Source: Plasmopara viticola (taxonomy: Eukaryota > Oomycota > Peronosporomycetes > Peronosporales > Peronosporaceae). From it: a stretch of 64,000 nt of DNA. The DNA is taken from assembly GCA_001695595.3 (NCBI GenBank), contig MBPM02000009.1:558001-622000 (forward strand). The letters run 5' to 3'. Both the position numbers and the translations under genes were made by a program. The notes beneath the pieces are model-generated. The model was not told the origin of the DNA. It made no database searches and was given only the letters and a program-made list of their open reading frames with translations. Shown here piece after piece: positions 1,990 through 63,881 of this stretch (its first letter is position 1; each line of letters starts with the position of its first letter).

Positions 1990-3699
1990 TCATCCAAAGA
2001 TGCGGCGCTTAATCTCCGTCCTGAGCATCCGCATTTCCAGTTGAGCTCCGCTCAAGAGACTCGAGTTTTCCTGAGCACGACGAATGAGGTACGGCAGCAC
2101 CTTGCGGATGGGGCCATAAGGCACGTACTTGAACACTTTATAACCATTCGCACCAAGCGTGTACGACACGTGATCGCACATGCCAAGCAGCTGGCCAAAG
2201 TAGACACCACCAGCAGCCCGACTGATTCCAATCTCCTGCATCTGCTGTACTGTTTTCACCACGGATTTTTCATTGTGCGACGCCACCATAAAGCTCGCGA
2301 GGTGATTATGAGACAATAACTTTGATACCTGAGCATCGTAATTGATGTGGGTGTCCTCAATGGTATTGTGAATCGGATCAGTGTATCCCTTGTCGCGAGC
2401 ACGTTTGCGTTCTTGTACCATGTAGGCCCCACGCACCAGCTTGGCAGCAAAGCGAAACTTTTCCCGACGAGCTCGCATAAGATCAATGTCAATGCGATCG
2501 CTCGACATTTTCAAATAACACTGGAACGTGTTATAGATGACGTCACTACCGTCGCGGTTGTACTTGCGTTGCAAGTTGAGCGTAAGGTGGTCGATTGCCG
2601 GCTGCATGTAAGTCTGTTCAGCATCCACCATGAGCTTGACGCCACGTTCAGCGGCGTCGTTAGCGAGCGACTCGAGGCGTCGAATCATATTGCCCAGCTG
2701 GGTCTTTTCATGTTCTGACAGTGGCTCCTCCTCAATAAATTGCGTCAAAGGGCCCATGGTCAGGTCTATCGGGTCCAGAAAACTCACCCAGTCCACATAA
2801 TCAATCACGCCGTCACCAGACAAGTAATCGATCTCTTTGAAAAGCTTCTGAATTTCTTCTTCAGTGGCATCCACGCCTGCGTTGTGAAGGCCAGCGCTCA
2901 GCGTAGGGTAGTCAATCATACGCTCGAGGTAGCGCGACTTGGCACGCGACAGGTTAGGGCCATCAAGCATGTGAAACAGTAATTGTGCCTGCACGATGAT
3001 GGCCGACATGCGCATGAGTAGTTCCGGCTTGCCGAGCGCCGTGCACTTAATGGCCACAAAAGCGGGTTCGCCTGCGGACGCGGCCTCGCTGGCATCGATG
3101 ATAGCGTGGCGCGAGATGGCAGCATTCGCATTACAGGCCTCCTCACCGTCGTAGGCATACGTGCGGGCAGAGATCAAGTTCTGGTCAACGCCATTGAGAT
3201 CGCGCGGCTGCTCGACGTCTGCTTCAGCGGCAAAGTCAAGAATGGCCCCAATGCCGGCAGACTCGAGCTTTTGAATGACAGGACGAATTTCATTGACGTC
3301 TTCACCGGCGCAAAAGTGACCAAAGAAAGTCGCACGGAGCAGCGCATTCGTGCATGTGGCGCCTGGGAATTTGTACGAAAGCTCCAGGAGCTCGCTACTG
3401 TGCTGCACGAGAGGGCGAAGCTGAGATGCTAAAAAGACAACGTAGGCGCGCACGAGCTCCGACGTCGATTTCATGGCAAAAATACGTTCTGTGTTGGTAA
3501 ATTCTTTCGCCAGCGACGCCTTTTTGCTCTGCTTGAGCGATACGTCTTCAGCCAATCTCCCCGATGATACAACGGCAGTGGGCGTAGCAGGTCTCGGTGA
3601 GGGTGACGCTGAGAGCGCCGCGACAGTCGAGCGCTGCAAGCTGCAACGGGCCATGGAAGCAGCAGGTCTCAGCAGTCGCGCAGATGCATGGCGTAGCAT
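1990..3699 (-). CDS. PRODH: Proline dehydrogenase, mitochondrial
   Basis: FAD-dependent oxidation of proline to pyrroline-5-carboxylate in the mitochondrial inner membrane, the first step of proline catabolism. The 569-residue protein starts at ATG 3699 with an Arg/Ser-rich, acid-free leader (MLRHASARLLRPAASMARCS) that looks like a mitochondrial presequence; the frame upstream to 3738 begins at GTG. PRODH barrel motifs are clear in the C-terminal half: FAAKLVRGAYM, VASHNEKSV, and the substrate-binding end YVPYGPIRKVLPYLIRR. Around residues 278-310 an EF-hand-like segment (LFKEIDYLSGDGVIDYVDW) is inserted; its loop is degenerate, so calcium binding is uncertain. The gene is divergent from glycyl-tRNA synthetase with 210 bp between start codons. 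No intron is needed. Family assignment is secure. Confidence 0.95.
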   Translation of the reverse strand: MLRHASARLLRPAASMARCSLQRSTVAALSASPSPRPATPTAVVSSGRLAEDVSLKQSKKASLAKEFTNTERIFAMKSTSELVRAYVVFLASQLRPLVQHSSELLELSYKFPGATCTNALLRATFFGHFCAGEDVNEIRPVIQKLESAGIGAILDFAAEADVEQPRDLNGVDQNLISARTYAYDGEEACNANAAISRHAIIDASEAASAGEPAFVAIKCTALGKPELLMRMSAIIVQAQLLFHMLDGPNLSRAKSRYLERMIDYPTLSAGLHNAGVDATEEEIQKLFKEIDYLSGDGVIDYVDWVSFLDPIDLTMGPLTQFIEEEPLSEHEKTQLGNMIRRLESLANDAAERGVKLMVDAEQTYMQPAIDHLTLNLQRKYNRDGSDVIYNTFQCYLKMSSDRIDIDLMRARREKFRFAAKLVRGAYMVQERKRARDKGYTDPIHNTIEDTHINYDAQVSKLLSHNHLASFMVASHNEKSVVKTVQQMQEIGISRAAGGVYFGQLLGMCDHVSYTLGANGYKVFKYVPYGPIRKVLPYLIRRAQENSSLLSGAQLEMRMLRTEIKRRIFG

Positions 3700-23058: not shown

Positions 23059-23163
23059 GTGGTACGACTACAAGAACTTTGCAATGGAGCTTGAAAACCA
23101 TAGAATAGTAACTTGACCAATATGCTCAAACTATATTATTTCCATATTTGTAATATTACATCT

Positions 23164-23236
23164 GCTCGCGTGGCCCAATGGATACGGCGCTGCCCTCCTA
23201 AGGCAGAGATTGCGGGTTCAAGTCCCGCCGTGAGTA
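23164..23236 (+). tRNA. tRNA-Arg (CCT)
   Basis: 73-nt cloverleaf: acceptor GCTCGCG pairs with CGTGAGT allowing two G-T pairs; A box TGGCCCAATGG; anticodon stem CTGCC/GGCAG with loop CTCCTAA, so anticodon CCT reads AGG; B box GGGTTCAAGTCCC; T stem GCGGG/CCCGC; discriminator A. No intron. Confidence 0.93.
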
Positions 23237-26200
23237 ATATGATTGGAAAGTCTCATAATTATTTATTTTATAACCTGCAAAATAAATTTACATTGTATAA
23301 TTCCAATGATGTGATAAAACCTTTCGAAAATCTGTCCATATCTACTTAGCCCGCGGCCTCTCAAGTTTCAAATAAACGAGTTGCGCTGGATTCGTCCGCC
23401 AGCTACGCAGTCTATTTTAAAAGTGTATGGGGTCTGAAGACGAGCATATGACGAGTTTCGGTGTGATAAGTGGTGATAAGTCATAAACGGAGACGTAAAT
23501 TGCCCATGACAACAAAGGTGACGACGATGTCGACTTTCTCCACGACTGAACCGGTCGGACTGGGGAGCACGATAAGATAGTATTACGGTGGTATTACGAT
23601 TATTAACATATTTGCAGGGCAATCGTGCTGACTATTGTGAATTTAAGAGCGTCCCAAAAAATGATGTTTCGTTGGCCAAAATGGGCATCAGTGTTACATA
23701 GAATGAGACGTGGACATTTCAGATTGACGGTCAAAAGTTCGTTCACACATATAAACATCTAGTATTTAATACATTTTTGAATTATGTAGTGGAGATTTGT
23801 GTTTGCAAACCACAAGCTGTCACCTGCCATTCAAGATCAGTATGCAGCTTCAAAACGTGAAGGTTGGATGAGGACTTTGACTCGGGCCTGCTGATTAAGC
23901 TTGTGGTACTCACGCCTCATTAAAAGACTGAGAATGGTAAAATGCGTTCTAGGCGACCATTACAAAAATGTTGCTCGCTGCTCACAACTCGCGATTGCTT
24001 GAGCAAAGTTGATGTGTGAGCTAAACGTTACATTCTATCCAAGTTCGCTCGATCAAATACTTGTCATCACCTGCTAGTGGTCTTGCACCCTATGGTCCGT
24101 AACACCATGCTGCCTTTAGCGCCACTTCCGTTGCGGTCGCCTGTTCGAAAGCGTATACAACGTCAAGGTAATAATGCCAAAAAAAGGTATAACTCTCGTG
24201 ATTGACACTGTGAGAATATTACCTCCGTTCATATAATGCTTGGTCTGATCATGGCGTATATAATATCCGCGACAGAGGCATTTTTTCATTATATCAAGAA
24301 AATAAAGTGGGGAGCTATATTCACTCGTCATGTGACGCATTATGTGCATCCGTTCTGATGTCGCTCGCGACTGATGTATGGCGGATACAACGCTGGAGCT
24401 GGCGAACATTAGCTTAAAAGAACTCTACACTGGGTGCAGCAGCTCCGTCATTGCTACGTCTAATCCGATGATAATTTAATTTTGAGTGCATAGTCACGTC
24501 GCCCCCACTTGACTCGCGCTTCTCAAAACACTTCGGGCTTAAAACCATATTCTTGTTTGACCGTTGGGTCGGACTTTGCACCGACTCTCCTGCGTTCACT
24601 AGATTTAGACTCTGCTACGGCTTAAGTAAGCTCACACAGAATGATGAGTAAACTCGCATCTTGTTATAATGTCGAGTCAACTCATCATCCTCTTTTTGCT
24701 GTAACTTTATGTAGAGCTGATCGGTTTAAGTTTAACTGTATGTTAATTTTATTGGCACTAAGTTTCTGGTTAAAAATCCAGCTTGCTGTTTTTTTGTCGT
24801 GGGTCCGCTCTTTTTTTCTGTAAATCTAAGATTGAGCCATACGTGTCGAAAGGCACAAGGCCAAAGTCTCAAACTTGTTTATGCATTGCCGGAAGCCTAA
24901 ATGAAGCTCACATTTTTTACCTTCCCACGCATAGAGCATGACGTGATTGACTTTTTGGATTGCAAGGGCCGTGAAACTATATACATTAACAGTGCATATG
25001 TTGTCGAGGCAGCAACACTGTTCAATGCATAATCAGCGTGTAAAGATATGTTTTCAACTCCGTCGCGTCTTTGCGCGCACTTTATTGGACAAATCTTCGA
25101 TGACGCGAATATCCCAAATTTTTGATCATTCATCTGCAGATAGTTCACTGTGGACACCCTTAACCACATTGAAGATGAGGTTTTGGAGTTCGTGAGCGTG
25201 GATCTCAATATTATAAGACGCTTAATTGCAGAAGTTCAAGCTCTCCAAATCATTGTCATAAAATTGAGCTGCTGATTCGACTTCGTCGACAGTGTATGGT
25301 ACGAACTCAGCCGGTCAGCAAAGACCTCATGATTTTTTGCGGTCAACCGAGTCCTTTGACAGGTCTAGCGCATTTTCATTAATATATACGACGAGCAACG
25401 TAAGAAAACCAGCAAGCTTAATAGTGGTACTACTGTGTTTGGCGAGTGTTCGACTCGCTGACCCGCTGACACACTTCACACGTGCGCATGTATGTACAGA
25501 CCCACTAACACAATCTAACTGGGTGCTAAGCAACCTAAATGTTCTTTCTCGACAGAGAAACTGCAAAGTGTTCTATCGTGACCCTTAATTATTTTATCTA
25601 TCGTCGCATGGGACCCCTCGACGTGATCATTCAAACTGTACTCCAAACACTAGGCTCCATCGAGAATTAGTTTAGCCTCGCACTCAGTCACACCAATAAA
25701 GTCTTATTTATGTTGTTAAGCTGAGTGTTCTCCGTATCAATGATAGAGATTAATAAGCGTTATTTTTAGAATACCGAGCACTTATTTAATTCAATACAGA
25801 TATGTTAACGACTATATCATGGTGTACCGCAATAACGCATTCAACAAAGCATCTGCTTTCCTGTCTTACATCTCTCCTCAACTTATTACTTTGTAGAGTA
25901 GCGAAAGTTAAGATGACTATATCGTAGTGCCTAGTAATGCATAATACATAATACACGAACTACTTGGGCGTAACAGTAAGCTCTGAATGCTACGAGAGCA
26001 TGTTTTATCATAAAAAGCATTTTGGGTGAAAAAAACGAAGCACTTTTAGAAAAGCACATGCCACCAGAGCCCGTACGCTAGGACAAAGTTTTTCAAGCTT
26101 GGGATACACCTTAATATCAAAATTCATCGGTGCTCAAGATACGCTTACACACATATACTCGAGAACGTTCACAGATGACCAATGCAGTTGTTCACGTCTC

Positions 26201-41509: not shown

Positions 41510-42268
41510 ATGAGCCAAAGCCCTGCAACCACTGATCCCGACTACAACTCCGCCTTTCCAATGGACACCTCTGCCTCCTGTCGAATCAATAAATCCGACG
41601 GAGCCAACTTTCACACATGGAAGTTCAAGATGCAGATGGTGCTCGAGGAACGCGATCTGTGGGAGGTCGTTTCCGCGGAAGTCAAGCTTGAGCACTGCCT
41701 CACCACGCTGGACCAAGCCGCGTTTAAAAAAAAATCGCGCAAGGCCATGATAATCATCTGTCTCGCGATGGAAGATTCGCAACTGCATTTGGTCCGGTCG
41801 GCTGATGATGCGCATGATGCGTGGTCGCGTCTGACGTCGCATTTCGAGAAGAGGAGTTTGGCCAACAAGCTCTTTCTTCGTCGACGCTTCTTCACGACAA
41901 TGATGAGTGAAGGTGATGATGTGTTGGGGCACATTAACAAGATCAAGACGCTGACGGAACAGCTCGATGCGGTGGGCGCTCCGGTCAACGAAGACGACTT
42001 GGTCATCACGCTTCTGGCAAGTTTAAATGACTCGTTCGCGTTCCTAAATACGGCATTGGAGTCTCGATCAGATTCGCTAACTTGGGAGCTCGTAACGTCT
42101 CGACTACTGGACGAACACATGAAGCGCAAGGAACAAGGTGGTGACGTCGATGGAATGACGCACATGCAAGGTCAAGCGTTTATGTCAAGCGACAACGAAC
42201 GGCGTAAGGGTCGTCAACGCCCGATGAAGGTCAACAAAGCCTGTCATTGTTGCGGTGAAAGTGAGTAG
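41510..42268 (+). pseudogene. Copia gag (UBN2-type), truncated at the zinc knuckle
   Basis: 252 codons. It has the copia Gag start INKSDGANFHTWKFKMQMVL, the FEKRSLANKLFLRRRF segment and DDLVITLLASLNDSFAFL. It ends at a stop just after CHCCGESE, so the CX2CX4HX4C knuckle is cut after its second Cys and the polyprotein is broken. Confidence 0.85.
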
Positions 42269-45200: not shown

Positions 45201-45560
45201 GTGCTATCGTCGACAGATCTGAGTATATGGCGCTTTCGGGAGCAATCCAAGAGGCAGTATGGCTCAAAGTGTTGCTAAGTGAGCTTGGCGCGATGGTGGG
45301 AGAGGAAGCGGTAAAGATCTACAAGAACCAATGCATTGGCCAAAAATCCTATATTTCACAAGCGCACCAAGCATGTCGATATCCGCTACCACTTCGTGCG
45401 TAAGAAAGTAGAAGACGGTCAAGTAATAGTGCAGTATTGTCCGACGCACGACATGCTTGCTGACATCATGACCAAGACGATTACTGCTGTCCAGTTTAAA
45501 AACTTCGGAACAAGTTGGGCATCAAGTCTCCAACTGCTGTTGGTCGAGTGTGATTGTTAA
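42270..45560 (+). pseudogene. Copia pol remnants: protease, integrase, reverse transcriptase, RNase H
   Basis: Readable pieces in shifting frames: a GAG-pre-integrase and integrase start at 42760-43080, a reverse transcriptase with FITLYIDDLILASS at about 44560-44600 inside an open frame 44488-45123, and the RNase H end KRTKHVDIRYHFVRKKVEDG at about 45360-45420. In-frame stops and frameshifts occur between them. A 104-bp segment is duplicated in tandem at about 44079-44270. Confidence 0.85.
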
Positions 45561-45735
45561 AGATACGACGCCTTGACTAGTGCAGTATTGTCCGACGCAC
45601 GACATGCTTGCTGACATCATGACCAAGACGATTACTGCTGTCCAGTTTCAAAACTTCGGAACAAGTTGGGCATCAAGTCTCCAACTGCTGACGTGTCGAG
45701 TGTGATTGTTAAAGATACGACGCCTCGACTATGTA
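45431..45735 (+). repeat. Tandem duplication at the copia pol / 3' LTR boundary
   Basis: The pol end plus the first about 28 bases of the LTR (45431-45583) is repeated at 45586-45735 (both begin TGCAGTATTGTCCGACGCAC). The true 3' LTR continues only from the second copy. Confidence 0.85.
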
Positions 45736-58332: not shown

Positions 58333-58340
58333 TAAAAGAA
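58333..58340 (+). repeat. MULE-2 target-site duplication, left
   Basis: TAAAAGAA immediately before GGGAATCG; identical to 63874-63881. Confidence 0.85.
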
Positions 58341-58522
58341 GGGAATCGTTAAACTGCCGGTACCCTTTTGGTAAACTGCCGGTACCCCTTGATTTTAGCC
58401 AATAAGATTAGTTCATTTTACCAATGGGAGCAGCTTATCTTTGTTAATGAACACAGTGTTTTTTCAACTAATAAAAAGAGAAAGCAATACCCATCGGGTA
58501 CCCCTGTTTCGTAAACTGCCGG
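58341..58522 (+). repeat. MULE-2 left terminal inverted repeat
   Basis: Aligns to the reverse complement of 63693-63873 over its whole length with scattered substitutions (roughly 90% by eye). It contains the repeated phrase AAACTGCCGGTACCC at 58350, 58374 and, as GGTTCCC, at about 58512. Confidence 0.9.
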
Positions 58523-58736
58523 TTCCCCTTGTTTTGAGCCAATAATAAAACGGGCAATTCCGTCAAAGAGAGCAATATTTTTCTGGCAATGAAAGCAGCA
58601 CTGAACAAGTTATCGAAATGCGCCTTCCTCTACGTCGTCTTGCCTTTAAAAGTATACGCATTTGCATGACTCTTGGGTATATACATGTTTTGTTTTGAGC
58701 GACGTGATTTTATATAATATAACTAATATTCAAATA

Positions 58737-59250
58737 TCATTTACAGTATTGAAATCTGCCAAAGAAAAGTTCAAAAGAATAAGAAGTAAAAAGGTCAAGC
58801 GCATTACAAAATAATGTCTGCATACCGATAGCTGGCACAGTTGCTGGTGCTGTAAGTGGGGCTCGTTGCCGACATGTTCTGGCATTGTAACCAGTCCCTC
58901 TCCACACTCTGCACCAACGGAGCAAAGGCGCCTCTGCATTAGCAGCCATCTCTACATGCCCAAACTGCGAAGGTAGGCGTCGAGTTGATCCAGATGGTCG
59001 GCCACGCGATAGGGCAAGTGGGGGTTCCTCCACCGAAGTCACTGCCGTCCAGGCTCGCATGGGATCCAGCATTCGTCTCTTTCGATGTGCGAGGATTTCA
59101 TTATCGTAATCGCCGGCGTATTTCCGTAACATTTCACTCATTGAAGGTTCCGGAAAAGCCTCGTCTACAGCTACACGTATTGGAGATCGAAGCCACCGAT
59201 GCGTGTCGAAGTCTTCGAAAAGGAGAGGCTGATTCGCACGAAGTCGAAAG
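58737..59250 (-). pseudogene. MULE-2 transposase, C-terminal part
   Basis: Minus-strand frame SMSEMLRKYAGDYDNEILAH then CRVWRGTGYNARTC, a degenerate form of the C-x2-C-x4-H-x4-C knuckle intact in MULE-1: the second Cys is Trp and the His is Tyr. Upstream in the same frame LFEDFDTHRWL is readable up to the array edge at 59260. It is separated from the catalytic part by the tRNA array. Confidence 0.7.
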
Positions 59251-59259
59251 TCATGGGCG

Positions 59260-59412
59260 GACCATGATAAAATTTGAAGTATACCATTCGTCTAAAGTTA
59301 AATTGATAATTAACCCTTCCTTAGGCACCAGCCAAGCCAGCAAGATTGCACAGAAACAAAAATTGCAGAATGACATTTTCACTGAAATAGGGAGCTGCAA
59401 TAGGGCCTTGCC
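59260..59412 (-). repeat. Inverted partial A-type unit at array start
   Basis: GACCATGATAAAATTTGAAG through GCAATAGGGCCTTGCC is the reverse complement of the A spacer plus the last bases of a tRNA (compare about 59794-59945). It faces the forward array and meets it inside a tRNA sequence. Confidence 0.9.
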
Positions 59413-59448
59413 TGCGAGAGGTCCCGGATTCGATCTCCGGCAAGGCCC
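59404..59448 (+). pseudogene. tRNA-Pro pseudogene at fold-back junction
   Basis: Only the 3' half of the tRNA (from TGCGAGAGG, 59413) is present, joined to GGCCTTGCC belonging to the inverted unit. D arm and 5' anticodon stem are missing, so there is no A box and no cloverleaf. Confidence 0.9.
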
Positions 59449-59730
59449 TATTTCTGCTCCCTATTTTAATGGAAATTTCATTTTGCTAAATTTGTTTCTA
59501 AGCGCTTTGTGTAATCTTGCTGGCTTGGTAGATGCTTAAGGAAGGGTCAGCTATCAATTTCACTTTGTACGAACGGTATACTTCAAATTGTTTTATGGTC
59601 ATATCAGCAGCTCTATAAGGAGTGAAAGATCGGCATCGTCGTAGCATTAGTGCATCACGAAAACGAGCAAGCCCACGCTGATGATATTCTTTATAAATAA
59701 GAAGTTGGGTTTGCGATTTACCGGTTCGGT

Positions 59731-59802
59731 GGCCTTGTGGTCTAGTGGTATGATTCTCGCTTAGGGTGCGAGAGGTCCCGGATTCGATCTCCGGCAAGGC
59801 CC
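59731..59802 (+). tRNA. tRNA-Pro (AGG), array copy 1
   Basis: 72 nt. Acceptor GGCCTTG/CAAGGCC, A box TGGTCTAGTGG, anticodon stem CTCGC/GCGAG with loop TTAGGGT, T stem CCGGA/TCCGG, discriminator C. The body is very close to eukaryotic tRNA-Pro. A TTTT run lies about 21 nt downstream (type A spacer). Confidence 0.95.
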
Positions 59803-60075
59803 TATTGCAGCTCCCTATTTTAGTGAAAATGTCATTCTGCAATTTTTGTTTCTGTGCAATCTTGCTGGCTTGGTTGGTGCTTAAGGAAGGGTTAATTATC
59901 AATTTAACTTTAGACGAATGGTATACTTCAAATTTTATCATGGTCACATCAGCAGCTCTGTAAGGAGTGAAAGATTGGCATTGTTGTAGCATCAGCAGAT
60001 CAGAAATAAGATCAAGCCCACGCTGATGATATTCTTTATAAATAAGAAGTTGGGTTTGCGATTTACCGGTTCGGT

Positions 60076-60147
60076 GGCCTTGTGGTCTAGTGGTATGATT
60101 CTCGCTTAAGGTGCGAGAGGTCCCGGATTCGATCTCCGGCAAGGCCC
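60076..60147 (+). tRNA. tRNA-Pro body with AAG anticodon, array copy 2
   Basis: Identical to copy 1 except loop TTAAGGT: position 35 is A, so the anticodon is AAG (leucine codon CUU). Identity is uncertain: the body and discriminator C are proline-type, and the long variable arm of tRNA-Leu is missing. The downstream CTAATTTAATGG lacks the near TTTT; the first TTTT run is about 40 nt away. Confidence 0.9.
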
Positions 60148-60429
60148 TATTTCTGCTCCCTAATTTAATGGAAATTTCATTTTGCTAAATTTGTTTCTAA
60201 GCGCTTTGTGTAATCTTGCTGGCTTGGTAGATGCTTAAGGAAGGGTCAGCTATCAATTTCACTTTGTACGAACGGTATACTTCAAATTGTTTCATGGTCA
60301 TATCAGCAGCTCTGTAGGGAGTGAAAGGTCGGCATCGTCGTTGCATTAGTGCATCACGAAAACGAGCAAGCCCACGCTGATGATATTCTTTATAAATAAG
60401 ATATTGGGTTTGCGATATACCGGTTCGGT

Positions 60430-60501
60430 GGCCTTGTGGTCTAGTGGTATGATTCTCGCTTAGGGTGCGAGAGGTCCCGGATTCGATCTCCGGCAAGGCC
60501 C
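60430..60501 (+). tRNA. tRNA-Pro (AGG), array copy 3
   Basis: Full-length and same sequence as copy 1; intact A and B boxes; type A spacer follows (with GAGGC for GCAGC). Confidence 0.95.
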
Positions 60502-60775
60502 TATTGAGGCTCCCTATTTTAGTGAAAATGTCATTCTGCAATTTTTTGTTTCTGTGCAATCTTGCTGGCTTGGTTGGTGCTTAAGGAAGGATTAATTATC
60601 AATTTAACTTTAGACGAATGGTATACTTCAAATTTTATCATGGTCACATCAGCAGCTCTGTAAGGAGTGAAAGATTGGCATTGTTGTAGCATCAGCAGAT
60701 CAGAAATAAGATCAAGCCCACGCTGATGATATTGTTTATATCTAAGAAGTTGGGTTTGCGATATACCGGTTCGGT

Positions 60776-60847
60776 GGCCTTGAGGTCTAGTGGTATGATT
60801 CTCGCTTAGGGTGCGAGAGGTCCCGGATTCGATCTCCGGCAAGGCCC
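60776..60847 (+). tRNA. tRNA-Pro (AGG) with U8 to A change, array copy 4
   Basis: Full-length, anticodon AGG, but the base after the acceptor stem is A (GGCCTTGAGG). This removes the universally conserved U8 and the first T of the A box. Folding and transcription are probably impaired. Confidence 0.92.
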
Positions 60848-61129
60848 TATTTCTGCTCCCTATTTTAATGGAAATTTCATTTTGCTAAATTTGTTTCTAA
60901 GCGCTTTGTGTAATCTTGCTGGCTTGGTAGATGCTTAAGGAAGGGTCAGCTATCAATTTCACTTTGTACGAACGGTATACTTCAAATTGTTTCATGGTCA
61001 TACCAGCAGCTCTGTAGGGAGTGAAAGATCGGCATCGTCGTTGCATTAGTGCATCACGAAAACGAGCAAGCCCACGCTGATGATATTGTCTATAAATAAG
61101 AAGTTGGGTTTGCGATATACCGGTTCGGT

Positions 61130-61201
61130 GGCCTTGTGGTCTAGTGGTATGATTCTCGCTTAGGGTGCGAGAGGTCCCGGATTCGATCTCCGGCAAGGCC
61201 C
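61130..61201 (+). tRNA. tRNA-Pro (AGG), array copy 5
   Basis: Full-length and same sequence as copy 1; type A spacer with TTTT about 21 nt downstream. Confidence 0.95.
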
Positions 61202-61475
61202 TATTGCAGCTCCCTATTTTAGTGAAAATGTCATTCTGCAATTTTTTGTTTCTGTGCAATCTTGCTGGCTTGGTTGGTGCTTAAGGAAGGGTTAATTATC
61301 AATTTAACTTTAGACGAATGGTATACTTCAAATTTTATCATGGTCACATCAGCAGCTCTGTAAGGAGTGAAAGATTGGCATTGTTGTAGCATCAGCAGAT
61401 CAGAAATAAGATCAAGCCCACGCTGATGATATTCTTTATAAATAAGAAGTTGGGTTTGCGATTTACCGGTTCGGT

Positions 61476-61547
61476 GGCCTTGTGGTCTAGTGGTATGATT
61501 CTCGCTTAGGGTGCGAGAGGTCCCGGATTCGATCTCCGGCAAGGCCC
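61476..61547 (+). tRNA. tRNA-Pro (AGG), array copy 6
   Basis: Full-length and same sequence as copy 1; type B spacer with CTAATTTAATG as after copy 2, so the nearest TTTT terminator is further away. Confidence 0.95.
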
Positions 61548-61829
61548 TATTTCTGCTCCCTAATTTAATGAAAATTTCATTTTGCTAAATTTGTTTCTAA
61601 GCGCTTTGTGTAATCTTGCTGGCTTGGTAGATGCTTAAGGAAGGGTCAGCTATCAATTTCACTTTGTACGAACGGTATACTTCAAATTGTTTCATGGTCA
61701 TACCAGCAGCTCTGTAGGGAGTGAAAGATCGGCATCGTCGTTGCATTAGTGCATCACGAAAACGAGCAAGCCCACGCTGATGATATTGTCTATAAATAAG
61801 AAGTTGGGTTTGCGATATACCGGTTTGGT

Positions 61830-61892
61830 GGCCTTGTGGTCTAGTGGTATGATTCTCGCTTAGGGTGCGAGAGGTCCCGGATTCGATCTCCG
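61830..61892 (+). pseudogene. tRNA-Pro (AGG), 3'-truncated, array copy 7
   Basis: Matches copy 1 up to GATTCGATCTCCG, then changes to CATGGATGTCCC. The 3' T-stem end and acceptor strand are lost, so no functional tRNA; the internal promoter A box and most of the B box remain. Confidence 0.92.
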
Positions 61893-61999
61893 CATGGATG
61901 TCCCGTGGTTGATTTGAACAAACCGCGGCAGCCTTGCTGCTCAAGAACTATAATTGGATGGTAATTAAGTTTTGAGTAGCGGAACTGGGTCATACACCT

Positions 62000-63260
62000 A
62001 CTTCTGGGTCATTGTTGCGTATTTTGTACTGCCTATAGGCACCATTCATCGCGGCAAAAGAACTTTTTCCCGCAAGAGGGACAATAATTGGCCCATGCTA
62101 CATATCGGCAACGGCACTCTTGGGCGTAATGGTACTTGACCTTGGCCAGTCGATCGTCGCATACGAGCTTAATTGCTGTATTTATGGACAAAAGGTCGCC
62201 TCAAAGAAAAAATGGGTTTGGATTAGCACAGGGTACATATGCCTGGTCGCTTCGTCGAAATCGCTTTACCTGTGGAAACCCCAATCCATTTTTTGAGCGC
62301 GGAATGAGCGCTTTCTACTCGGGAAGTGACGGTGTTTCCAAAATGAAGTACATCCCGCAGCCATGCACTAGCGAATTCTTCCTTGTAGCATAGCCAAGTT
62401 ATATTAAGGTAGTATATGATGTGCGATGGCACCATTCCTCTCACTATCTCAAGACGCTCTTCATATTGGGCTTCAGCCTCTACGTGCATCAAAGAATTCC
62501 AAGTACTGTGGAATTCCTGAAACAATTCTTGCGTATCGAAGCTACGTCCTGTCTTTGCAAAGGCATTCTTGCTTATGTGCCACCTGCACAAGAGCGCCTT
62601 GCTTTCTGGGAAAAATTCGCCAGCGCAGTCATGAGAGCTAGCTCTCGATTGGTGACAAAGACGGACCTCAAAGGAATCTGGAACGTCAAAAATACATCTC
62701 TCAGTTTCGTTGAGGCCCAGCCATAATCGCGTCTTGTTTCTCCTCGCTTGAAATAGTAGCCTAGCGTGAAGGTTTGATTTGTGGCAGTCACACTAACCAC
62801 ATGCAGCAGGGGCAGTCCGTATCGGTTGGTTTTGTAAATGGAATCCAGCAACCACACTTTTCCTCGGCTAAACGTCGAACATATTTCTTCTGCGCCTCGT
62901 GAGACAATAAAAAGATGAGTCACTTTGTTGCTATAATCTTGCTGCGCAAAGTGTTTAAAGTCTGCCGAAAGACTTTCAAAAAGTTCCTGCATCGGAGTTC
63001 CTCCAGCAAGCATGGTCACCTTGTACGCACGACGGACATTATAGAGGTCCTGTGGAGTGGCGTTGATACTAGCGTTGCGCTGGCGTAACAGCGACTTGAA
63101 GTGACTCCAGGTTGTGTGAGGCCCACAACAGCCTGTTGCTCCGAGATTACAAGAGCGCGACCGCTTAAGTGAGCCGATGGATGGATAAAAGGCTCGTGAT
63201 TGTGTTCTCCCGACGTGACTTCAACCTTTAAAAGAATGGTGCAGAGTTCATGATCCAAAT
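62000..63260 (-). pseudogene. MULE-2 transposase, N-terminal and catalytic parts
   Basis: Minus-strand pieces: EVTSGEHNHEPFIHPSAHLS (FAR1-like/MULE N-terminal), then KVWLLDSIYKTNRYGLPLLH with the first catalytic Asp, VFVTNRELALMTALANF where the usual Asp of VTDRELAL is Asn, then after a frameshift near 62610 LCRWHISKNAF, and SRVESAHSALKKWIGVSTG. A further shift leads to AIKLVCDDRLAKVKYHYAQE near 62100. At least three frame breaks; inactive. Confidence 0.8.
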
Positions 63261-63692
63261 TGTAAACCTGTAATTACGGCTAGTTTTCTGACTATTTCGC
63301 AGGTGTTTACGGCCGCTAAATGCCTGAAAATAGACTCGCTTGCACTTGCAGTCATTTTTCTGGCTACTCCGTAAGCGTTTCCGGGAGTTAGAGGTAGAGA
63401 CTAGAACTTCACTGGCCTTTGTGCATCGTAAGACAAGGATTTTTGGGCTTCCTTCCTTTATTTTGCCTACTCGTTCCGTTCTAAAAACACAAAGCTCATA
63501 ACCTTTGGCTCATGCACGCGCGACGCGAGTGCATGAGAACCACCGACTTTGCTCTTCCAGAGGAGCTGTACGAGAGATCTCGAGGGGGTTGCATAAAGTT
63601 CATTGCGAGAAGAAGGGTGCGACAAGAGTGATGTTGGAAAGAGTGATATTGAAAAGAGGTGAGTAGGAGTTATTTCTTAAAAACACTGAGTG

Positions 63693-63873
63693 CCGGCAGT
63701 TGACAAAAAGGGGTACCGGATGGGTATTGCTTCCTCTTTTTATTGGTTGGAAAAACACCGTGTTCATTAACAAAGATAAACTGCTCCCATTATTAAAATG
63801 AACTAATTTGATTGGCTTAAATCGAAGGGTACCGGCACTTTACCAAAAGGGTACTGGCAGTTTAACGATTCCC
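63693..63873 (-). repeat. MULE-2 right terminal inverted repeat
   Basis: Mirror of the left repeat; ends ...GTTTAACGATTCCC at 63873. Shared inner landmarks include GTTCATTTTA, CAATGGGAGCAG-like and TTGTTAATGAACAC, read on the minus strand. Confidence 0.9.
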
Positions 63874-63881
63874 TAAAAGAA
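63874..63881 (+). repeat. MULE-2 target-site duplication, right
   Basis: TAAAAGAA immediately after CGATTCCC; identical to 58333-58340. MULEs usually make 8-11 bp duplications. Confidence 0.85.

Follow-up and report, generated by a model that had tools for sequence, protein, structure and literature searches.

The window, a 64,000-nucleotide stretch of a Plasmopara viticola contig, contains a Mutator-like element (MULE) in which a tandem array of tRNA-Pro genes lies inside the transposase region (Table 1). The terminal inverted repeats (TIRs) of the element, with computed arms at 58340-58509 and 63705-63874, are 91% complementary over 170 nt and 88% when extended to approximately 195 bp, and the target site duplication (TSD), TAAAAGAA, is identical in all 8 positions on both sides. 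The insertion site of the MULE is AT-rich. The MULE transposase domain PF10551 was recognized on the minus strand at 62573-63220 (E 7.7e-13, 49.2 bits versus a curated cut-off of 27.6), with the adjoining transposase stretch, 62223-62792, in a different frame. The C-terminal part of the reading frame, on the other side of the array, contains a putative CCHC-like zinc knuckle, a motif given no score by Pfam. The sequence-only reading, which had proposed a MULE-type DNA transposon with TIRs of about 181 bp, a perfect 8-bp duplication, and transposase pieces around a tRNA-Pro array, was thus borne out as far as the architecture is concerned. The MULE domain is shared with the MULE groups described in Phytophthora, where TSDs of 8-11 bp are given for MULEs and a CCHC knuckle for one oomycete group (PMC6446971); in the available part of that description, TIRs are 40-81 bp long or absent, as against approximately 170-195 bp here, a comparison made by description.

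Table 1. Coordinates of the element and of its components in the window.
Feature	Coordinates	Strand	Details
Mutator-like element	58341-63873		5,533 bp; defined by TIRs, TSD, and MULE transposase pieces
TSD, left copy, TAAAAGAA	58333-58340	.	8/8 identical to 63874-63881
TSD, right copy, TAAAAGAA	63874-63881	.	8/8 identical to 58333-58340
Left TIR	58341-58535	+	versus right end: first ~170 bp 91%, ~195 bp 88%
Right TIR	63680-63873	-	pairs with left TIR
C-terminal part of MULE reading frame, presumed CCHC-like zinc knuckle	58737-59259	-	open reading frame
Insert piece 1, inverted type-A array unit fragment	59260-59412	-	part of spacer and tRNA 3' end
Insert piece 2, tandem tRNA array	59413-61890	+	seven units of 345-354 bp, order B A B A B A B
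Complete tRNA-Pro(AGG)	59731-59802	+	ARAGORN, Rfam
Complete tRNA-Pro body, anticodon AAG (called tRNA-Leu)	60076-60147	+	ARAGORN, Rfam
Complete tRNA-Pro(AGG)	60430-60501	+	ARAGORN, Rfam
Complete tRNA-Pro(AGG), one T-to-A change near A box	60776-60847	+	ARAGORN; absent from Rfam listing
Complete tRNA-Pro(AGG)	61130-61201	+	ARAGORN, Rfam
Complete tRNA-Pro(AGG)	61476-61547	+	ARAGORN, Rfam
3'-truncated tRNA-Pro	61829-61892	+	ends at right array/MULE junction, CG (2 bp) shared
MULE transposase region, body	61891-63273	-	PF10551 in 62573-63220; relatives elsewhere in genome

The insert amounts to approximately 2.63 kb and consists of 2 array pieces in opposite orientation. Tandem repeat detection delimited the longer one as 59413-61892, with a period of 354 and 7.1 copies. 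ARAGORN made 7 tRNA calls within the element, 6 of them complete genes; 2 further genes are truncated, one at its 5' end, beginning at 59413, and the other represented by the seventh call (61829-61903), which spans the array/MULE junction. The earlier count of at least 6 full-length tRNA-Pro genes therefore stands as to number, but only 5 carry the AGG anticodon, the sixth having an AAG anticodon in a tRNA-Pro body. Five of the 6 complete tRNAs pass the Rfam gathering score, the exception being the gene at 60776. The 40-base variant with the AAG anticodon (60076) has a single exact match in the whole genome, within the element.

The inverted fragment, 59260-59412, had not been described in the sequence-only reading. 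It is about 95-98% identical to type-A units (reversed) and only 82-84% identical to the adjoining type-B unit, which excludes a fold-back of its neighbor. A tRNA-derived SINE could likewise be excluded, the units being tandem spacer-plus-gene repeats that match the home array.

The genome (92.94 Mb in 358 contigs) contains 541 matches (77 + 464) to near-identical tRNA-Pro genes at up to 3 mismatches in a pattern search, so that the array, taken in the first reading on its own, exists in hundreds of genomic copies. Among the matches listed, those outside the window sit in 2 arrays, one at positions 202-33974 of the element's own contig (C9) and the other at the start of contig C47. These listed genes form long contig-end arrays of approximately 350-bp units, with the same 2 unit types as in the insert; both contigs start inside the arrays, and that of C9 extends to at least 42.2 kb and lies within about 575 kb of the element. 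The pattern search revealed these arrays. When the 701-bp dimer was used as a DNA query, this locus alone was matched, an outcome probably due to the omission of very common words by that type of search. The same-isotype, near-identical, many-copy units are those of oomycete tandem tRNA arrays. Giant arrays of this kind are reported from Phytophthora infestans, along with tRNA genes numbering in the thousands in some downy mildews, and as far as the available part of that account goes, the arrays resemble those found here in their hundreds of same-isotype genes and in tandem units that measure a few hundred bp (PMC9584435). The present case differs from them in that a 2.6-kb fragment has escaped into a transposon, its source consisting of tRNA-Pro(AGG) genes in 2 unit types.

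When each of the 7 units in the window is compared with its closest counterpart among 75 sampled array units, the substitutions number 0, 4, 7, 6, 5, 3, and 8, that is, 0-8 per approximately 350 bp (0-2.3%); in all, the 7 units carry 6 private alleles relative to these 75. The window array aligns about as well with pieces of the C47 array as with the C9 array, and judging from these alignments, the insert need not derive from the latter.

The joints of the insert are clean. At the left MULE/array joint and at the inner inversion (59412/59413) there is no overlap, and at the right joint 2 bp (CG) are shared; no MULE base was lost at insertion, the MULE sequence continuing at the very next base. 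With up to 3 mismatches allowed, neither of the 2 MULE/array junctions recurs elsewhere in the genome. That the junctions result from misassembly of array reads into a MULE is very improbable. Assembly of such arrays is difficult, both C9 and C47 have their starts within one, and our evidence is the assembled sequence; but the MULE picks up at the very next base after the insert, the insert holds the genome-unique AAG variant and 6 alleles absent from the 75 sampled units, and the published assembly is, according to the accessible part of its description, based on PacBio long reads (PMC6660063).

The first 25 bases of the left TIR have 186 matches in the genome (100 + 86) at up to 3 mismatches. 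In 6 of 6 informative sister loci (L008, L010, L011, L020, L031, and L033), both sides of the insertion site are contiguous and the array is absent. Two of these, L010 and L011, are 99.87% identical including their flanks and hence represent one insertion, so that the 6 loci correspond to 5 independent copies. An open frame of 204-211 aa crosses the insertion site in 3 of the 6 (L008, L010, and L011; 2 independent copies); in L020, L031, and L033 the frame is interrupted. When the 204-aa frame was used in a homology search, none of the 66 candidates reached E ≤ 0.001, and the C-terminal part therefore does not allow the transposase to be placed. One sister without tRNA genes, C4:982921-985812, measures 2,892 bp. 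Relatives of the MULE body over at least 800 bp are 83-89% identical (11 matches, with 40 of 101 candidates scored). Among 12 other paired copies tested for TSDs of 6-11 bp, with a shift of at most 3 bases permitted, 7-9-bp duplications having no more than 1 mismatch, some one base off register, were found on C95, C42, C20, C75, and twice on C1 (L071 and L069); of 2 copies on C27, one (L032) has a duplication that is ambiguous within a T-run and the other (L021) matches at 7/8, off register, and the copies on C36, C50, C34, and C4 showed no clear duplication within these lengths and shifts.

These comparisons bear on the stronger claim that the element belongs to a true lineage of tRNA-array-carrying transposons spreading tRNA genes, which the sequence-only reading had expected to appear as further insertions with their own TSDs. 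In favor of it, the element is structurally complete, with ends that the transposase of relatives could recognize in trans; nevertheless, ARAGORN detected tRNA genes in 1 of 35 TIR-bearing loci from the family with 186 ends, that one (L007) being the window itself, and no further insertion with an array was found among these 35. Together with the array-free state of all 6 sister loci and the uniqueness of both junctions, this largely refutes a special tRNA-carrying lineage in this assembly and renders it extremely unlikely. The situation that the earlier reading had named as its own refutation, namely array-free MULEs with the array at this one locus as a later insertion, largely corresponds to what we found.

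We consider it highly probable that the array entered one MULE copy by a recent, repair-type insertion, making the locus a single-copy Pack-MULE/Pack-TIR with a tRNA array as filler. A Mutator-like element of about 2.9 kb, from the family with many ends, would have landed in the AT-rich site with an 8-bp duplication; a break or stalled fork inside its transposase region may then have been filled with approximately 2.63 kb of tRNA-Pro array DNA in 2 opposite pieces, either through the end joining of fragments or through a template switch into an array, conceivably that of the same contig. Both the repair mechanism and the arrival of the array after the landing of the MULE at this site are inferred. 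Overlaps of 2 bp easily arise by chance, and the joints therefore do not discriminate between end joining, template switching, and a 2-bp target duplication.

It is unlikely, in our assessment, that the array was instead captured by an active MULE elsewhere and that the loaded element subsequently transposed here. Capture would have followed excision, through abortive gap repair of the kind proposed for Pack-MULEs in plants. The loaded element has good TIRs and is flanked by a perfect 8-bp TSD, and its C-terminal frame remains open up to both joints, all of which would fit such a history; however, each junction was found once, neither a donor nor a second copy is visible in the genome, and the MULE had none of its sequence replaced or removed, internal deletion being the usual trace of abortive gap repair. 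The MULE is also 11-17% divergent from its longest-matching relatives and the array piece 0-2.3% from its source, although array homogenization and MULE divergence are different clocks and the order of insertion and transposition cannot be dated from one copy. Entry as extrachromosomal circular DNA, for which tandem arrays are a usual source, or through an unknown factor producing a 2-bp target duplication, as the CG on both sides could be read, appears rather improbable: the opposite pieces, an inverted type A followed by a first direct unit of type B, are not obtainable from one circle, and the CG overlap is within chance.

Pack-TIRs formed by gap filling and giant tRNA arrays in oomycetes have each been published; the locus is an unusual cargo in a common transposon type, not a new kind of mobile element. 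Host DNA with a parental copy elsewhere lies between the TIRs, a filler-free sister exists, and the loaded element has one copy in this assembly. The loss of the transposase gene seen in the plant type does not apply here, and since transposase pieces are retained on both sides of the insert, the transposition-independent Pack-TIR type fits better. As far as the available part of the report extends, animal single-copy Pack-TIRs arise when gaps are filled independently of transposition, the process showing a same-chromosome bias and microhomology with a median of 2 bp (PMC8277862). The element shares with them the TIRs around non-TE DNA, the single copy, a possible same-contig source, breakpoints inside the element, and 2 bp of microhomology at one breakpoint, equal to that median; it differs in that its filler consists of complete tRNA genes arrayed in tandem, in 2 pieces of opposite orientation, that its host is an oomycete, and that it lacks none of its own sequence. 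In the open-access literature, insofar as it was accessible, we found no description of a tRNA array inside a DNA transposon; nearest to it are fungal mitochondrial plasmids, which likewise place tRNA genes on mobile DNA (PMC9925561). These are mitochondrial, with no tandem array mentioned in the available text, whereas the element here is a nuclear TIR transposon. The tRNA arrays of Entamoeba belong to an unrelated lineage, and the accessible portion of their description mentions no transposon (PMC2652664).

Giant tRNA array DNA can thus become transposon cargo that includes intact tRNA genes, most probably as filler in repair, and this provides one concrete, testable route by which tRNA genes could leave their arrays; the stronger claim is corrected in that this assembly gives no sign of a tRNA-carrying transposon family. 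Movement of tRNA dosage or insulators by the element, as suggested initially, is possible in principle, but a dosage effect of the insert is unlikely, given that 6 genes are added to more than 500. There is a slim chance that the loaded element can still be mobilized in trans by same-ended relatives and that such Pack-MULEs occasionally seed tRNA arrays at new sites; if so, this would partially explain the occurrence of same-isotype arrays across several scaffolds. The tRNA genes of the insert may well be transcribed, and the private AAG-anticodon copy offers a clean marker for transcription of the escaped array piece.

The sequence-only reading had described a MULE bounded by terminal inverted repeats (TIRs) and a target site duplication (TSD) and carrying an internal tRNA array, and the follow-up bore this out with small corrections. 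The ends of the element display 91% complementarity over 170 nt (88% over approximately 195 bp in a longer match), and TAAAAGAA flanks it on both the left and the right as the TSD. The Mutator-like transposase pieces are encoded on the minus strand (PF10551, E = 7.7e-13).

Features of the element and of the surrounding window (window positions)
Feature	Position	Remarks
MULE element	58341-63873	Ends are inverted repeats
Direct subterminal copy of the left TIR start	58507-58545	39 nt, 90%; likewise in several sister copies
Inverted array piece	59260-59412	
Tandem array (direct piece)	59413-61892	7.1 units, between transposase pieces
tRNA-Pro body with anticodon AAG	60076-60147	
Single tRNA-Arg(CCT)	23163-23237	No tandem array around it
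Frame, presumably retroelement gag-like	41510-42268	
Tandem duplication	45427-45731	151-bp unit, 96%; downstream of the gag-like frame

A genome search with the left TIR, in which 40 of 211 candidates were scored, yielded at least 53 matches. We examined 35 loci (L007-L036 and L067-L071), including the window's own ends (L007 and L017) and some cases in which two loci are the two ends of one element; the genome contains 186 ends of this MULE family, and the tRNA survey covers the 35 loci. Outside the window, both sides of the array position are present in six loci (L008, L010, L011, L020, L031, and L033), all of which are array-free, with element position 917-929 running directly to 3551-3553 (in L033, the two flanking matches overlap by approximately ten bases at this position). 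L010 and L011, on contigs C101 and C21, are 99.87% identical across the whole 3.16 kb, including the flanks, and therefore represent one insertion present twice, leaving five independent array-free copies; the two stretches are probably a second haplotype or a duplicate of one region within the assembly. The other examined loci stop short of the array position or have internal deletions. The empty state is thus seen in every informative copy. ARAGORN detected tRNA genes in only 1 of the 35 loci, L007, which is the window itself, so that further insertions with internal tRNA arrays, which would have supported the sequence-only reading, were not encountered among these TIR-bearing loci. The insertion site is crossed by an open frame of 204 aa in L010 and L011 and of 211 aa in L008; this frame is broken in L020, L031, and L033; in the window, the frame stays open as far as both joints. 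The array therefore interrupts an apparently coding part of the MULE. Three ends of the family on another contig (G000:C78:147613, 155979, and 164355) share the same orientation and a spacing of approximately 8.4 kb, perhaps reflecting tandem duplication of a larger segment.

Alignment of the joined window flanks with the sister copies revealed no loss of MULE bases and a 2-base overlap, CG. At the left joint, the MULE sequence ...GGGCG is followed by the inverted array piece (GACCATG...) with 0 bases in common; the inner joint between the inverted and direct pieces (59412/59413) likewise has 0 bases in common, and at the right joint CG is common to the array and the MULE. Each outer joint was found once in the genome, at the window (34- or 32-base pattern, up to 3 mismatches). 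A simple fold-back of the adjoining unit, which is of type B, as the origin of the inverted piece is ruled out, because the piece matches type-A units at approximately 95-98% and the adjoining type-B unit at only 82-84%.

The array of the element is ordinary sequence for its host genome. In 92,937,831 bases (358 contigs), the window tRNA-Pro gene has 541 matches with up to 3 mismatches (77 forward and 464 reverse), and the reversed control pattern gave 0 matches in the same search. The matches listed, all with 0 mismatches, fall at C9:202-33974 (minus strand), in the window (four), and at the start of C47 (ten). The window occupies 558001-622000 of contig 9, which starts within a tRNA-Pro array; this extends to at least approximately 42.2 kb in the fetched pieces (C9:1-42210; L037-L066, L072, and L081). 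Both unit types, A (approximately 345 bp) and B (approximately 354 bp), which are approximately 11-14% apart, are present in the home arrays, where they alternate imperfectly, whereas the window array keeps a strict B A B A B A B order. Arrays of other isotypes comprise tRNA-Lys(TTT), with units of approximately 550-580 bp, on C27, C140, and C147 (L077, L078, and L080), and a tRNA-Thr(TGT) array on C16 (L079), for the most part in alternation with a tRNA-like gene to which ARAGORN could assign no anticodon. The tRNA-Arg(CCT) of the window stands alone, in contrast to these array-borne isotypes. PMC9584435 reports giant tandem tRNA arrays in Phytophthora infestans; the tRNA gene totals it gives for other oomycetes lie between 380 in Plasmopara halstedii and 8,606 in Sclerospora graminicola.

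We compared 7 window units with 75 units from C9 and C47, keeping lengths of 300-370 bp and dropping others. The window units differ from the nearest sampled array unit by 0, 4, 7, 6, 5, 3, and 8 substitutions (0-2.3%), and array units from their nearest neighbor by a median of 1, a mean of 3.1, and a maximum of 27; the window units are slightly more distant than typical array units, still inside the range. The window has six private alleles, each confined to a single window unit, and their frequency (0.86 per unit) is not above the array-unit mean of 1.15. Among the best 40 of 101 candidates scored, the MULE body on the right side of the array is 83-89% identical to its relatives over stretches of at least 800 bp (11 rows, one insertion being counted twice) and 78-92% identical in shorter matches, plus one 31-base match at 97%; the left part matches the six sister loci at 85-90%. 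The array and MULE divergences do not run on one clock, since homogenisation acts on the home array; even so, they are consistent with an older MULE copy that received the array recently. The window array is probably a recent piece of home-type array.

The simplest account is break repair or fork restart within the MULE, with array DNA taken as filler; this could have entered via end joining of two fragments or via template switching, and the joints fit either. The contig that carries the element also bears an array of the source family, no more than approximately 575 kb away. For animal single-copy Pack-TIRs, excerpts of PMC8277862 describe a same-chromosome source bias, internal breakpoints, capture after transposition, and, in 67.6% of cases, microhomology of 1-36 bp (median 2 bp) at one breakpoint or both, a set of marks that the element resembles. 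We file it as a single-copy Pack-MULE with tRNA-array filler. Both tRNA arrays and this class of capture event are already known; among the literature titles and abstract openings listed, none described a tRNA array as MULE filler, which is a weak negative.

ARAGORN made seven tRNA calls in the array, the seventh being truncated and spanning the array/MULE joint. The proposed minimum of six full-length tRNA-Pro genes holds as to number, with six complete genes, one of which has the anticodon AAG. Four of the six have the standard sequence and one is changed near the A box; 5 of the 6 are above the Rfam gathering score. TTTT lies 16-19 bases 3' of the gene in four cases, and TAATTTAA occupies its place downstream of the genes at 60076 and 61476. 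The AAG body is the sole exact genome match to its 40-base pattern; it would decode a leucine codon, could serve as a natural marker for transcription out of the element, and, if charged with proline, may act as a mistranslating tRNA.

Elsewhere in the window, the transketolase shares 90% identity with its Plasmopara halstedii counterpart and 87% with the three that follow among the matches listed.
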